A DNA stretch of 36,741 nucleotides from a virus, in IMG/VR virus record IMGVR_UViG_3300027969_000013, positions 1 through 36,741 of that record; one strand, written 5' to 3'. A model generated the notes under the pieces. The model was not told where the DNA came from. It ran no database searches and saw only the letters and a program-made list of their open reading frames with translations. The position numbers and the translations under genes were made by a program. Below, piece after piece: positions 1,761 to 36,741 of this stretch; the first letter of the stretch is position 1; every line of letters begins with the position of its first letter.

Positions 1761-2006
1761 TTAGCGTTCTTGCCAGTAATCATCAATCCCATCATCATCG
1801 AATTCCTCGATGTATTCATCATCATCTAATAACTCACCATTACCTGTATCGCTTTCACTTAACAGGTCATTACGCACCTGTAAAGGAATGTAAGCATCAA
1901 CTGAGCGTAAACAGGTCGAGCACATCTCTAAGAATTGTCTAGTAATTCCATGTCTAACAGTAGATTCATAATCATTTAATGCTGTATTGCAACATTGACA
2001 TCTCAT
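1761..2006 (-). CDS. Small zinc-finger-like protein with acidic tail (81 aa)
   Basis: Two CxxC pairs, C3/C6 and C29/C32, form a probable zinc-binding module within the first 35 residues. The C-terminal third is extremely acidic (D/E runs, about residues 60-78) and may mimic DNA or bind a nucleic-acid enzyme (inference). Small proteins with this CxxC..CxxC plus acidic-tail layout are common in T7-like phages, without a known function. The start is preceded by AAAGG 7 nt upstream. The candidate antisense promoter at 1638 points into its 3' end. Confidence 0.7.
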   Translation of the reverse strand: MRCQCCNTALNDYESTVRHGITRQFLEMCSTCLRSVDAYIPLQVRNDLLSESDTGNGELLDDDEYIEEFDDDGIDDYWQER

Positions 2007-2171: not shown

Positions 2172-2321
2172 TTATACCTTTGTGCATGATGGAGGCATAT
2201 TCGGACAAATATAACAGGATACAATGCCCTTATCAGTCACAATGGTTTGAATTGTGCAGGACTGAGCGAATGTATCGCCAATGTATAGCAATGTTGCAAT
2301 TAAACCCATAATTTTAAACAT
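2172..2321 (-). CDS. Small secreted cysteine-rich protein (49 aa)
   Basis: A short basic start and hydrophobic core (MFKIMGLIATLLYIGDTFA) form a classical signal peptide with probable cleavage after TFA. The remaining ~30 residues hold four cysteines (SC, SCYIC, SCT). It is probably exported and disulfide-bonded in the periplasm. The Shine-Dalgarno GAGGA lies about 9 nt upstream. The start overlaps the end of the sigma-4-like gene by 22 nt. I cannot assign a function; envelope modification or superinfection exclusion would fit the type (inference). Confidence 0.65.
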   Translation of the reverse strand: MFKIMGLIATLLYIGDTFAQSCTIQTIVTDKGIVSCYICPNMPPSCTKV

Positions 2322-2452
2322 AAGTACAAATCCTCATAAGTGATATTTCGTTTAGATAATTCAATTCTTACCTTGTTTAGTGCGGACTGCTCCAACTGAC
2401 TGACACGCTGGTGACTAATCCCCAACTCTGCGGCAACCTCCTCTAATGTCAT
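2300..2452 (-). CDS. Stand-alone sigma-70 region 4-like helix-turn-helix protein (50 aa)
   Basis: Residues 2-29 (TLEEVAAELGIS..RVSQLEQSALNKVR) match the pattern of sigma-70 region 4.2, the domain that reads the -35 element: T-L-E-E-V-A-x-E-L-G-hydrophobic-S, R-V-x-Q-hydrophobic-E, A-L-x-K-hydrophobic-R. No other sigma region is present; the remaining ~20 residues are a short helical tail. The ATG overlaps the TGA of the upstream gene (ATGA), so it is translationally coupled. It probably binds DNA or the RNA polymerase beta-flap and redirects host transcription (inference). The family likeness is clear; the exact role is not known. Confidence 0.75.
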   Translation of the reverse strand: MTLEEVAAELGISHQRVSQLEQSALNKVRIELSKRNITYEDLYLCLKLWV

Positions 2453-2700
2453 TCAATAACCTCCTCCTCACTTGACCATAGCACGAATGTATTAACCTCG
2501 CCTTGTGCGTCTGCATCGAATACGCTCTTATCCTCAATAGAGGCGATAGCGTCCGCCTCGCTTAGTGCCTCCACACAATTAAAATGTAAAGTAATCGTTT
2601 TTACTAGGTCAAATTGTGGCATTTTCTTAATTCCTTTTTTAGAGTTTATGCAACTGTTAAGACAATCAATATCCCCACAAGGGGTTTTGCAGGGATACAT
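2449..2700 (-). CDS. Hypothetical protein (83 aa; possibly 57 aa from an internal start)
   Basis: From the ATG at 2700 (AAGGG about 9 nt upstream) the first 26 residues are cysteine-rich (PCKTPCGDIDCLNSC). A second ATG at 2622, with AAGGA about 9 nt upstream, would give a 57-aa acidic product starting MPQFDLVKTITLHFN. Both starts have plausible ribosome sites, so two nested products are possible. A longer reading from 2739 overlaps the methyltransferase end and is less likely. The end is coupled by ATGA to the sigma-4-like gene. I do not know the family. Confidence 0.6.
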   Translation of the reverse strand: MYPCKTPCGDIDCLNSCINSKKGIKKMPQFDLVKTITLHFNCVEALSEADAIASIEDKSVFDADAQGEVNTFVLWSSEEEVIE

Positions 2701-2701
2701 T

Positions 2702-3904
2702 TTATAAGCCCTTAGTAAAGTTATGGATTCTGTTTCCAATCCAGTTCATTACAGGAACTGCCATTGAATTACCCATTGCTTTGTAACGCAATCCGTCTGG
2801 ACAACCGATAGCAACTTTTTTATTCCAAGGAATCTGAGTGTAGTTATCTGGAAAGCCTTGCAACCGCTCACATTCCACAGGAGTTAATCGACGAACTGCG
2901 GTACTTGCTGCATAGACAGAGGCAACCTGATTTGTGACTTCGGTAGATTGTGGTGAGCGACTAGGGTCATTGCTTGCGGTCAATGTCGGTGCAACTACAT
3001 TTGTTAATGGAACTGCAACGGCAGGAGTTTTGCTCTTATCCAGTGTAGGTGAAATTGTATCGATTGACATACTTTGATTAGAACTATTCTGCCAACCGAA
3101 TGCAACATTTTGAACAAATGGAATATTACCGCCTCCGCTACCCCATGTTGAAGTAACAGTCTGACAAGTCTCACCCATATCTTTAACCCTACTGTCGGAT
3201 GGGTGATTTTCATAGACTGTTAAGAATGTTTCAGAGCCACCGCCTAAGACTCCTCCGCTTGCTTTGCTTGTTGCTGCGATGACATCTTCACGATATTGTC
3301 CAAAGCTACTTTCAACAAAGCTGGCAATGTCTTTCCCCGTCTTTCTGCTCTGTTTAATATCCCCTGACAAGCTTTCGGACTCAAATAATACTTCTGCTGC
3401 AGGTTTCCAGTCTCCAAGACATCCGACAACAAACACTCTTCTGCGTCTTTGTGGGACTCCGAAGTTTTGAGCATCAAGCACTCTGTATGCGAACCCATAC
3501 CCGAGTTGAGCCACCGCCCCGAGGAAGGAACCAAAATCCCGTCCTCCACTGGAACTGAGGACACCCGGCACATTTTCCCAAATGAACCACTTGGGTCTAA
3601 ACTTGTCAAGAATTCCAACATAGGTGAGGGCAAGATTTCCTCTTGGGTCTTCAAGACCTTTTCTGAGTCCTGCGACTGAGAATGATTGGCAGGGTGTTCC
3701 TCCAACAAGAATGTCAATTGATTCATTTAGGTTCCAATCTTTAAAGTTATTCATATCCCCAAGATTAGGGACATTCGGATAATGATGAGCCAAAACCGCT
3801 GATGGGAATGACTCTATTTCTGAAAATGCTACAGGTTGCCATCCTAACGAATGCCAAGCAACTGTTGCCGCCTCTACTCCACTACATACGCTTAGGTATT
3901 TCAT
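2702..3904 (-). CDS. C5-cytosine DNA methyltransferase (Dcm type)
   Basis: This enzyme transfers a methyl group from S-adenosylmethionine to cytosine C5 in DNA. All core motifs are present in order: motif I VCSGVEAATVAW (about 6-17), motif IV GGTPCQSFS with catalytic C72, motif VI WENV (109-112), motif VIII PQRRRR (151-156), a variable target-recognition region (about 190-335), motif IX RRLTPVECERLQGFPDNYT, and motif X MGNSMAVPVM near the end. At 400 aa it is full length. No restriction enzyme is adjacent, so it is a solitary phage methylase, probably protecting phage DNA from host restriction (inference). The same DNA also carries a long alternative-frame reading (3244-3726). Confidence 0.95.
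   Translation of the reverse strand: MKYLSVCSGVEAATVAWHSLGWQPVAFSEIESFPSAVLAHHYPNVPNLGDMNNFKDWNLNESIDILVGGTPCQSFSVAGLRKGLEDPRGNLALTYVGILDKFRPKWFIWENVPGVLSSSGGRDFGSFLGAVAQLGYGFAYRVLDAQNFGVPQRRRRVFVVGCLGDWKPAAEVLFESESLSGDIKQSRKTGKDIASFVESSFGQYREDVIAATSKASGGVLGGGSETFLTVYENHPSDSRVKDMGETCQTVTSTWGSGGGNIPFVQNVAFGWQNSSNQSMSIDTISPTLDKSKTPAVAVPLTNVVAPTLTASNDPSRSPQSTEVTNQVASVYAASTAVRRLTPVECERLQGFPDNYTQIPWNKKVAIGCPDGLRYKAMGNSMAVPVMNWIGNRIHNFTKGL
3244..3726 (-). CDS. Possible overprinted gene inside the methyltransferase (160 aa)
   Basis: This is a same-strand, shifted-frame reading from an ATG at 3726 (GGA 6-7 nt upstream) that overlaps methyltransferase residues 60-221. The product starts MNQLTFLLEEHPA and contains LVPSSGRWLNSGMGS and YYLSPKACQGILNRAERRGK. 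I recall phage proteins with a very similar W-x-NSGMG motif and LSPKACxGIL-RAE-RGK ending being annotated in their own right, some next to methyltransferases; I cannot check this here. Length alone is not evidence: same-strand shadows of 143 and 156 codons occur inside the reductase and polymerase genes. Treat as a candidate. Confidence 0.35.
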   Translation of the reverse strand: MNQLTFLLEEHPANHSQSQDSEKVLKTQEEILPSPMLEFLTSLDPSGSFGKMCRVSSVPVEDGILVPSSGRWLNSGMGSHTECLMLKTSESHKDAEECLLSDVLETGNLQQKYYLSPKACQGILNRAERRGKTLPALLKVALDNIVKMSSQQQAKQAEES

Positions 3905-5162: not shown

Positions 5163-5697
5163 GGTGCTGCTCCTCTTATCTACTGTTAAATTGTATTACC
5201 TAGTAAGTATAACGGTATAAATCCGGTAAAGTATACAATTATTTTATAGGGACATTCCCTTAAGGGTTTACCCTAATACTAACTGGATTGTCTAACTTAG
5301 TCCCCCTGTGGTGGTGCATCATCGCAATACACACTGCCTATTATTTAGGCAACATAGTACTGCCTAATAATTAAGCACCTATGTTGGTAAGTACTCACTA
5401 ACATCGATACTGTTGCGTAGATACAACACTGTGGTATAGAAACAACGCTGTAAGTTGACATAGGGGGGAGGGGGTTGATGTTATAGTATAATATTGTGGG
5501 ATGCTACACCGTACACAAAAGAGTAAAATAGGACTTATGCTGGCATAGACCTAAATAGTTGATAATAAAAGATAAAGTTATCAATAAAGTTGATAATGGA
5601 AACTGCTCACTGCGAAGCAGGTCTGCGGAGGCTAATAACGATAGGGTAGCCCCGCTACGATAAAGACATACCTAGTGTAGGGTCTATAAAATAATGC
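5163..5697. other. Non-coding divergent region with origin-like repeats
   Basis: No gene fits here. The region separates the leftward and rightward blocks. Contents: a leader for the leftward genes (5170-5245) with TTGTATACTT (5239-5230) and an AT-rich -10-like TATACT (5211-5206); hairpins around the GGGA/TCCC and CCCTTAAGGG stretch (5249-5272); a compact repeat cluster at 5333-5395; near-repeats ACAACACTGT (5423-5432) and ACAACGCTGT (5442-5451); a G-rich run GGGGGGAGGGGG (5463-5474); and AT-rich DNA around 5480-5600. Direct and inverted repeats beside AT-rich DNA at the point of transcription divergence suggest a replication origin (inference). Confidence 0.4.
5333..5395. repeat. Cluster of direct and inverted repeats (origin or operator candidate)
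   Basis: ACTGCCTATTATTTA (5333-5347) and ACTGCCTAATAATTA (5359-5373) are direct repeats matching at 13 of 15 positions, 26 bp apart. TGCCTA/TAGGCA (5335-5340 / 5346-5351) form a hairpin with a 5-nt loop. CAACATAG (5350-5357) pairs with CTATGTTG (5379-5386), and AGTACT occurs at 5357-5362 and 5390-5395. These nested symmetries in 63 bp are not explained by any gene. Confidence 0.6.
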
Positions 5698-5726
5698 TTG
5701 ACAAAAGTAAGAAAGTATGCTAAAAT
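5698..5726 (+). promoter_or_regulatory. Sigma-70 promoter of the rightward structural block
   Basis: TTGACA (5698-5703), a 17-nt spacer, TAAAAT (5721-5726). The predicted start is near 5733, giving a leader of about 195 nt before the small terminase gene. It is the best-placed promoter for all structural genes. Confidence 0.75.
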
Positions 5727-5748
5727 CGCTTTACAAGAGTTCAGCAAC

Positions 5749-5839
5749 ACACTATAAAGTAATCGGGACAGTCCCCTTCGGGACGACAAGTTATAGTGTA
5801 CTGTAGCATGGGGAACGAATAACCGACAGGTAGTTCCCC
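5749..5839 (+). promoter_or_regulatory. Highly structured 5' leader of the terminase transcript
   Basis: ACACTATAA (5749-5757) pairs perfectly with TTATAGTGT (5791-5799). Inside lies GTCCC (5771-5775)/GGGAC (5780-5784) with a CTTC loop. The same GTCCC segment can instead pair, as GGGA/TCCC (5765-5768 / 5772-5775), with the sequence before it, so two mutually exclusive hairpins are possible. A second stem, GGGGAAC (5810-5816)/GTTCCCC (5833-5839), follows. No open reading frame occupies it. It could be a regulatory leader, an RNase III processing site or a small RNA (inference). Confidence 0.55.
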
Positions 5840-5870
5840 TCTACGATAGCGAACAACGGTCTACGACAGC
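5840..5870. repeat. 20-bp-phased direct repeats upstream of small terminase
   Basis: TCTACGATAGC (5840-5850) and TCTACGACAGC (5860-5870) match at 10 of 11 positions, exactly 20 bp (two helical turns) apart. A shorter relative, GCTACGATA, lies near 5655. Small terminases commonly bind phased repeats next to or inside their own gene, so this is a candidate packaging (pac/cos) recognition site (inference). Confidence 0.45.
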
Positions 5871-5928
5871 ACTCTATAGTATTAGTAGGGCTTTGAATTT
5901 TTTTGTGTCTCCTATAAGGATAAAGACT

Positions 5929-12730: not shown

Positions 12731-12759
12731 TTGACTTTTTTATAAAGTTGTGGTAAAAT
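12731..12759 (+). promoter_or_regulatory. Sigma-70 promoter before the scaffold/capsid genes
   Basis: TTGACT (12731-12736), a 17-nt spacer, TAAAAT (12754-12759). It sits in the only sizeable gap between 7.6 and 15.1 kb and would boost scaffold and major capsid expression. Confidence 0.7.
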
Positions 12760-18102: not shown

Positions 18103-18759
18103 ATGGCAACAACTTACCTACAAGCTGTTAACTCTGTTTTGCGTAGATTGCGTGAGACAGAAGTTGCTACAGTCAATGAAAACAGCTATTCCAAATTAAT
18201 TGGAGAGCTGGTTAATGACGCTAAAAAACAAGTAGAAGATGCTTACGAGTGGAATTCCTTAACTACTTATTTTACTGTTCCTACTGTAGCTGGTCAATAT
18301 GATTACACAGTTACTGGCTTAGGTGATAGATTTCGTGTTGTAGACTTTCTAAACGACAGTCAAGACTATGCAATGATTAATATCACTGCAGAGCGTATGA
18401 ATCGGTTTACGACCTTTGGCACACCTCAAACATCTTCACCAATGTATTATACCTTTAGTACAGTAGATTCATCAACAGGCGATACTAAAGTTAGTGTTTA
18501 TCCACAGCCAGATAAAGTCTATACATTGATTTTAGACGCTATTGTACCTCAAGCAGATTTGTCTTCAGACGGTACTGTGATATTAGCTCCTGCAACTCCT
18601 ATTATCCTTAATGCCTATGCTAGAGCGTTGCTTGAGCGTGGTGAGGACAATGGATTGAATTCTAGCGAAGCATGGGCTTTGTACAAATCTTCTTTAAGCG
18701 ACAACATTGCTATTCAAGCTGCACACCACACTGAGTACACTGAATGGGTTGCTAATTAA
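18103..18759 (+). CDS. Tail tubular protein A (T7 gp11-like)
   Basis: The dodecameric adaptor between portal and nozzle. It opens TYLQAVNSVLRRLRETEVAT, the standard start of gp11-like adaptors, and has helical N- and C-terminal parts (LLERGEDNGLNSSEAWALYK) around a beta domain (about 60-150). 218 aa fits the family (T7: 196). TAATG overlap with the nozzle gene. Confidence 0.88.
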   Translation: MATTYLQAVNSVLRRLRETEVATVNENSYSKLIGELVNDAKKQVEDAYEWNSLTTYFTVPTVAGQYDYTVTGLGDRFRVVDFLNDSQDYAMINITAERMNRFTTFGTPQTSSPMYYTFSTVDSSTGDTKVSVYPQPDKVYTLILDAIVPQADLSSDGTVILAPATPIILNAYARALLERGEDNGLNSSEAWALYKSSLSDNIAIQAAHHTEYTEWVAN

Positions 18760-27237: not shown

Positions 27238-27726
27238 TTAGATTTCGCACCCACCTGCTTTAATAATTTCAACATCTTCTTTATTTAAACAATACCATTC
27301 ACCTGAATGATGTTTGTTTTTAAAATATTGATGCCAATATTCTTCTGTTTCTCCCTTATCAATTCCGTAATATACAACTTCTAATTGAAAGGGATTTCCT
27401 GCTTTAATAGTCCGTACTCGTTCTTCAATATTCTTTGTTGTTCCTATTTTGTAATAGGATTCACAGCGAATGACATACAGTGAAGAACCTATATTTTGTG
27501 CGTACACTCCTTTTTTACCATTCTGTTTTCCTGCACAAAGTTTGCATTGTTTAGAACCACCTGTTCGTAAGTTTGTAGCAGATACGGCAGACTCTGTACC
27601 ACACTTACATCTACAAGTGTAAAACCAGTTTCCAGAGGTATTCTTATGGGAAAACGATAGGACAAGCCACTTATTAAATGACTTACCTATCATATCCTCG
27701 ACTTTGTATTTAGTCCAGTCTCCCAT
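27238..27726 (-). CDS. Zinc-ribbon plus GIY-YIG (T5orf172/MUG113-type) nuclease
   Basis: Two modules. The N-terminus (about 8-64) has the GKSFNKWLVLSF..NWFYTCRCKCG pattern and a second pair C61/C64, a DNA-recognition module often found on phage HNH and AP2-type homing proteins. The C-terminus (about 82-150) is GIY-YIG-like: YVI at 84-86, YKIG at 92-95, conserved R103 in EERV, the acidic EE at 128-129 and the HSGEWYCL ending. It lies 1 nt after the reductase stop and last in the leftward block, which suits a mobile or host-DNA-degrading nuclease (inference). Confidence 0.75.
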   Translation of the reverse strand: MGDWTKYKVEDMIGKSFNKWLVLSFSHKNTSGNWFYTCRCKCGTESAVSATNLRTGGSKQCKLCAGKQNGKKGVYAQNIGSSLYVIRCESYYKIGTTKNIEERVRTIKAGNPFQLEVVYYGIDKGETEEYWHQYFKNKHHSGEWYCLNKEDVEIIKAGGCEI

Positions 27727-36010: not shown

Positions 36011-36741
36011 AATGTATCCTTAATTTCAAACATACGACCACTTTGCCCATTATACAACAGTGAGCCACAATTACCAGTATAGCCACTAAAGCGGTTCTTT
36101 AGCACCCTCACTTGTGTTGTATTTCTCTCAATCATATCTAGTGCTTGTCCGTTACGCTCCAAACCAATCACTATGTCAGATAGCTGTGCAATAGCGCCAG
36201 AGCCACGAAGTTGTGCTAAAGATGTTGCAGCGCCTTCTTCGTGTCCCTTGCTATCAGGTCTTTTCAGATGTGAAACACAAATCAAACTAATACCTGTCTC
36301 TTGGACCAACATACGCAACTTCGTCATAATGGAATCCAAGGCTTTACGCTCATCTCCAACATCACCACCACTAACAATAATGCTGAGATGGTCAAGAAAC
36401 ACATAGCCACAATTAAGACCTTTAGCCATGTAACGCACTCGATTGACAATATTTTCCAAAGAAGTACTCCCGAAATGGTCAAACAAATAAATGCGGTCAC
36501 TTCCGAGTGTTCTATCAAAAGCATCTTTAAGTTCCTCCGGTGTTACTTCAACATCAGGTAAATGAATTGGTTTGTTTACTGCCAAAGACATGAGGGAACG
36601 AGCAGTTTTGCGGACTCCCTCTTCAAGAAACATAAGTCCGATTTTGTCAGTTGTCTTGTTAAGTATGTGCCATACAATCTCTCTAAGAAATTGAGATTTG
36701 CCAAGTCCACTTCCTGCAGTGACCATGACAAGCTCCCCCTT
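36007..36741 (-). CDS. Primase-helicase, T7 gp4-like (C-terminal helicase part)
   Basis: The ring helicase half of the gene that begins at 1003. Walker A GSGLGKS, the switch-like FLEEG, Walker B CGYVFLDHLSII, the SLAQLRGSGAIAQLSD DNA-contact/H3 region and VLKNRFSGYTG (arginine finger/H4) are all present, in the order of T7 gp4. It unwinds the fork on the lagging strand. The end overlaps the next gene as ATGA. In the circular genome the protein is continuous with the primase portion at 1-1003. Confidence 0.95.
   Translation of the reverse strand, partial: KGELVMVTAGSGLGKSQFLREIVWHILNKTTDKIGLMFLEEGVRKTARSLMSLAVNKPIHLPDVEVTPEELKDAFDRTLGSDRIYLFDHFGSTSLENIVNRVRYMAKGLNCGYVFLDHLSIIVSGGDVGDERKALDSIMTKLRMLVQETGISLICVSHLKRPDSKGHEEGAATSLAQLRGSGAIAQLSDIVIGLERNGQALDMIERNTTQVRVLKNRFSGYTGNCGSLLYNGQSGRMFEIKDTL
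36615..36741. repeat. Right copy of 127-bp terminal direct repeat
   Basis: Identical to 1-127 (offset 36614). It lies within the Walker A region of the primase-helicase gene, an unlikely place for a natural packaging end, which favours an assembly overlap of a circular sequence. Confidence 0.95.

Follow-up and report, generated by a model that had tools for sequence, protein, structure and literature searches.

A 50-residue solo sigma region 4.2 gene in a phage genome, a candidate accessory regulator of transcription

The window analyzed here consists of positions 1 to 36,741 of IMG/VR virus record IMGVR_UViG_3300027969_000013 and is 36,741 nucleotides in length. It contains, on the minus strand, a 50-residue open reading frame (ORF) that resembles one part of a sigma factor. 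The question raised by this locus is what so small a protein does in a phage, and whether it switches transcription between two opposed gene blocks, as the original prediction had proposed. Judged by its sequence, the ORF is a real and selected gene for a protein made of sigma region 4.2 alone. With little better than even confidence, the product is read here as a sequence-specific early accessory transcription regulator, and the gene is probably an optional regulator rather than a master switch. The gene and its parts are as follows (H, helix; HTH, helix-turn-helix).

2300..2452, minus strand: gene of the solo sigma region 4.2 protein, 50 amino acids, MTLEEVAAELGISHQRVSQLEQSALNKVRIELSKRNITYEDLYLCLKLWV (translation, Pfam, homologues, dN/dS, fold)
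2460..2469, minus strand: ribosome-binding site GAGGAGGAGG, 7 nucleotides 5’ of the ATG (read from the sequence)
2423..2446, minus strand: predicted helix H3 (residues 3-10), first helix of the HTH (AlphaFold2)
2351..2413, minus strand: predicted recognition helix H4 and its extension (residues 14-34), beginning in the SHQRV motif (AlphaFold2, alignment)
2306..2338, minus strand: predicted C-terminal helix H5 (residues 39-49), equivalent of the sigma helix on the beta-flap tip (AlphaFold2)
2300..2321, minus strand: overlap with the start of the downstream ORF 2172-2321, residues 44-50 being double-coding

The 50-residue protein matches the Pfam family Sigma70_r4 (PF04545) with E = 3.3e-9 and 36.6 bits (cut-off 24.1). 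The match spans only positions 21-49 of the 50 in the model, and the protein therefore represents region 4.2 and the C-terminal tail, without region 4.1. Helices H1-H2 of region 4.1 are absent both from the Pfam alignment and from the codons upstream of the homologues, and the ORF opens at H3. The tiny solo sigma-4-like gene of the original prediction thus holds, limited to region 4.2. A frameshift or a missed upstream part was rejected because the homologues show just a stop or a few unrelated codons in frame 5’ of the ATG; in most, a stop codon lies at or just before the codon preceding it. The related loci L009-L011 have a few additional upstream residues (LMFLLTFEDSMYTYQQ) that resemble the end of region 4.1 and are closed off by a stop. 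A split sigma factor was also rejected, as there is no region 2 and the small early genes gave no sigma-like matches. Sigma70_r2 (PF04542) had no match in the same protein or the rest of the phage in a search that detected its positive controls.

By sequence, the closest solved chains in the PDB are RpoH, SigA, and RpoS, with profile E values down to about 1e-9 for SigA and RpoS. The protein has the HTH of region 4.2 (PF04545) in common with all three but lacks region 4.1 and every other sigma region. RpoS alone among these chains aligns through the C-terminal tail (residues 2-43). In Escherichia coli sigma-70, the -35 element is read by R584, E585, and R588. The 50-residue protein differs from sigma-70 at these positions, with H14, Q15, and S18 standing where sigma has R, E, and R.

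AlphaFold2 predicts the fold with a predicted local distance difference test score of 87.8 from the single sequence and 90.8 with the family alignment. The helices span residues 3-10, 14-34, and 39-49, and correspond to sigma H3-H5. The predicted fold is an HTH, as had been anticipated. Between 35 and 44 residues of the model align with sigma region 4 chains. The HTH part (about 35-39 residues) superposes with a root-mean-square deviation of 0.5-1.6 Å, and the whole with H5 with about 2-3.5 Å. Against region 4 of the primary sigma and RpoS, 41-44 residues align at about 33-39% identity. In a Foldseek search of a viral library, the best matches had E >0.001.

The solo gene is conserved in ten related phage contigs. 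Among viral contigs, eight relatives share 77-92% identity and are all 49-50 amino acids long, and additional relatives came from a second scan and a profile search of related loci. Selection was measured against ten homologues on residues 1-43 alone because residues 44-50 overlap the next gene. The ratio of nonsynonymous to synonymous divergence (dN/dS) is 0.04-0.14 where computable, and the corresponding ratio of proportions of differences (pN/pS) is about 0.2 where synonymous sites are saturated. Absence from close relatives and a relaxed substitution pattern had been named as signs against the gene; it is present in close relatives and under purifying selection. An alignment of ten subfamily representatives (alignment numbering for the tail) keeps the framework residues A7, V17, I20, A24, and K27 and the tail residues I37, D42, and L43, whereas exposed positions of the recognition helix are more variable. 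This pattern is as expected for a family that changes its DNA targets.

Other phages have solo relatives that are more diverged. In cellular genomes, all four matches lie within longer HTH or sigma-like proteins. Short Sigma70_r4-like proteins of uncultured Caudovirales (BFVD A0A6J7WNB9, 47 amino acids; A0A6J5LCA9, 62 amino acids) and a 43-amino-acid protein of MW202753 annotated as "RNA polymerase sigma factor cnrH" share the size class, the predicted fold, and the solo HTH. Their identity to the 50-residue protein is about 43-46%. They come from different phages, and in MW202753 the neighboring genes differ as well. To our knowledge, none of them has a tested function. Such uncharacterized proteins of uncultured phages already have database entries, so that sequences of this kind were known before; the present analysis adds the restriction to region 4.2, the evidence of selection, the natural deletion, and the pattern across subfamilies. 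In the literature searched, mostly outside subscription journals, no report on a phage protein made of region 4.2 alone turned up.

Three loci carry the module in other arrangements. L022 has tandem sigma-4.2-like genes (L022:1279-1458 and L022:1458-1604), the first strongly diverged and without a Pfam match of its own. L084 has two different solo sigma-4.2 types dispersed in one contig (L084:623-829 and L084:3517-3729). L023:3325-3537 is a fusion of the module with a short cysteine peptide (MYPCKTPCGDIDCLDSC); in the window, this peptide belongs to ORF 2449-2739.

A detectable member is present in 7 of the 37 loci that reach >3.5 kb upstream of a related helicase, a count that includes partly fragmentary contigs in which the gene could lie elsewhere. 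In the helicase tree, the gene comes and goes. The type found in the window occupies one clade and a distant pair (L009 and L011), a diverged type (MSLPEI...HTSTVYEIQ...) occupies the sister clade, and a 12-member clade has no detected member. L042, which falls near L005 and L006, lacks the gene, and the ORFs on both flanks are intact. A whole-record Sigma70_r4 search found nothing in L042 (a record of only 12 kb) or in eight other gene-less relatives. As a close sister, L042 shows a clean loss of the gene. Because it nonetheless keeps a near-identical plus-block promoter and leader, the gene is taken to be accessory and not needed for that promoter. The patchy presence and the two copies in L022 and L084 are likewise the behavior of an accessory regulator.

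As such a regulator, the three-helix protein (an H3-turn-H4 HTH plus H5) would bind a specific DNA site through its recognition helix, and the DNA-bound protein would tune a subset of phage or host promoters. The best sequence matches, Pfam Sigma70_r4 and sigma chains in the PDB, point in this direction. We infer the DNA binding, the target sites, activation as against repression, and action as a dimer as against action on RNA polymerase. Three points weigh on the other side. A comparison of the divergent region between possessors and L042 showed no operator element tracking the gene, and no binding site for the protein was found. The hydrophobic core of a 50-residue HTH that lacks region 4.1 is small, and a partner may therefore be needed. 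The fold is also very common: structural Z scores are at most 4.4, low because the protein is tiny and helical, and HU and other HTH chains score nearly alike, so that the identification rests on the sequence match.

The main rival explanation is that the protein mimics sigma region 4 and docks on the host RNA polymerase with H5 on the beta-flap tip, which we regard as possible, at roughly one chance in four. It would then either displace host sigma region 4 and shut host -35-dependent promoters, or add an upstream DNA contact, like T4 AsiA/MotA or gp33. In sigma, H5 sits in a hydrophobic hook of the beta-flap tip, and other flap contacts lie in or near H1 and H2 (PMC2988021). Flap binding stays possible since H5 is retained, and is doubtful since H1-H2 are lost. 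H5 is kept in diverged subfamilies with an acidic-leucine-hydrophobic motif, and RpoS is matched through its C-terminal tail by profile and by structure. The phage also has no RNA polymerase of its own. A search for the T7 type (PF00940) found none in the record and gave 4e-106 in Pelagibacter phage HTVC019P, which upholds the original prediction on this point, and the phage must rely on the host enzyme. T4 gp33, a small unrelated protein, clamps the same flap helix and represses when alone (PMC7892883). However, without region 4.1 the contacts in or near H1 and H2 are impossible. The next gene also shares the coding sequence of the last seven residues, which form most of the second half of H5, and the plus-block promoter is the same in genomes that have or lack the gene. 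The tail may merely hold the small fold together.

T4 AsiA/MotA and gp33, also small phage proteins, have region 4 or the flap tip of the host RNA polymerase as their target, and T4 likewise has no polymerase of its own (PMC2988021, PMC6755090, PMC7892883). They have no sequence match to the 50-residue protein, and they serve T4 middle or late genes, whereas the 50-residue gene is dispensable in a sister phage. AsiA (PF09010) gave one partial match of 15.5 bits (cut-off 25) inside gene 18103-18759, in a search in which no control rose above the cut-off. The MotA C-terminal DNA-binding domain (PF09158) had no match in the phage, in a search whose controls, with no T4 record among them, all scored under the cut-off. 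AsiA/MotA is required at a class of promoters whose upstream element is altered; the comparison here is limited to the plus-block promoter, which is unchanged in L042, and this speaks against such a requirement there. Xp10 P7 and T7 Gp5.7 are likewise small phage proteins that target initiation by the host RNA polymerase; their names and descriptions set them apart from the 50-residue protein.

In an unlikely combination of these ideas, the H3-H5 piece would dock on the flap through H5, and its changeable recognition helix would direct the polymerase to or away from promoters. If true, phages would swap the piece like a cassette, as a plug-in specificity module.

A further unlikely reading is that the small protein binds DNA in another role (replication, packaging, counter-defense, or partner of another HTH protein), with no direct effect on promoters. 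The gene lies within the minus block, upstream of the primase-helicase, among early genes that vary strongly between relatives: a methylase is a neighbor here, and relatives have ArdC-like and other genes. The protein also has weak matches to terminase small subunit and repressor models. Its top family matches, however, are sigma factors and transcription regulators. The methylase neighbor of the original prediction is present in this genome and missing from the slot in most relatives; a methylase control protein was rejected because this neighbor is not constant. In L009-L011 (DNA polymerase about 51% identical), the gene is at the same general place. The methylase, a cytosine DNA methyltransferase at 2702-3904, has about 80% DNA identity to genes in a few other phages. 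An ArdC-type antirestriction-like gene, recognized by eye, occupies L006:7906-8787 within the variable stretch 5’ of the slot.

The proposal that the protein turns transcription from the minus to the plus block is improbable. The window has a 127-bp direct terminal repeat (1-127 and 36615-36741), and the record is therefore probably a complete genome. It encodes a terminase, portal, DNA polymerase A, primase-helicase, and ribonucleotide reductase. The two opposed blocks are there as described, the minus block running from 5162 down to 27238 across the ends and the plus block spanning 5893-27191. The three host-type promoters on which the switch was to act also read as predicted, each with TTGAC[AT], a 17-nucleotide spacer, and an upstream TG.

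5698..5726, plus strand: plus-block promoter, TTGACA-17-TAAAAT with TGC before the -10
12731..12759, plus strand: promoter-like TTGACT-17-TAAAAT with TG; a similar site occurs in relative L006
18064..18092, plus strand: promoter-like TTGACA-17-TAAACT with TG

These promoters and the early position of the gene in the minus block fit a switch. Promoter-like sites in the first 19 kb are at chance level (45 against 50.2 expected), but relatives conserve the 5698 site. Upstream of the terminase, 21 of the 23 genomes compared keep TTGACA-17-TA...T and the TG that precedes the -10, seven with this gene type, three with the diverged type, and 11 with none detected, the rows being related and the independent events few. 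Every member of the gene-less 12-member clade whose promoter region was examined has TTGACA there. L006, with the gene, and L042, without it, are almost identical through promoter and leader. Such a natural deletion argues against the protein being required at a 5698-type promoter, which, as the promoter of the structural block, is of a plain host type with or without the gene, and the switch between blocks is not upheld.

The leader between this promoter and the terminase gene (5727-5880) is strongly conserved in about 19 relatives. It looks structured, with a GTCCCCTTCGGGAC hairpin and GGGGAAC/GTTCCCC arms. RNAalifold on 19 rows gave 13 pairs, five with changes on both sides, and the single-sequence z is -1.9; the leader had no Rfam match. 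A second conserved block 5’ of the promoter (5600-5690, GGTCTGCGGAGG...TAGCCCCGC) is common to relatives.

That the ORF is a decaying remnant or arose by chance, as its shortness and the many relatives without it might suggest, is ruled out for practical purposes by the selection pattern, together with the uniform length of close homologues and the strong ribosome-binding site.

The small ORFs around the gene are as follows.

2449..2622, minus strand: upstream small ORF, 57 amino acids, no family; its adjacency to the 50-residue gene is inconstant among relatives
2172..2321, minus strand: downstream overlapping ORF, cysteine-containing, with a signal-like N terminus
1761..2006, minus strand: conserved small protein with paired cysteines, 3’ of the slot in most relatives

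An ATGA overlap joins the start of the 50-residue gene to the stop of ORF 2449..2622. A small ORF similar to 2172..2321 is at the same place in relatives, including L042, which has no sigma-like gene. At the end of the minus block, 27238-27726 encodes a MUG113/T5orf172 domain protein, a domain we take to be of the GIY-YIG nuclease type.

The results correct the idea of this gene as the early-late switch of the phage. An action on promoters would place the protein among the smallest regulators derived from sigma and would indicate how small a part of region 4 suffices. This can be tested with natural pairs of phages that differ in the gene and with the several subfamilies, whose recognition helices differ.
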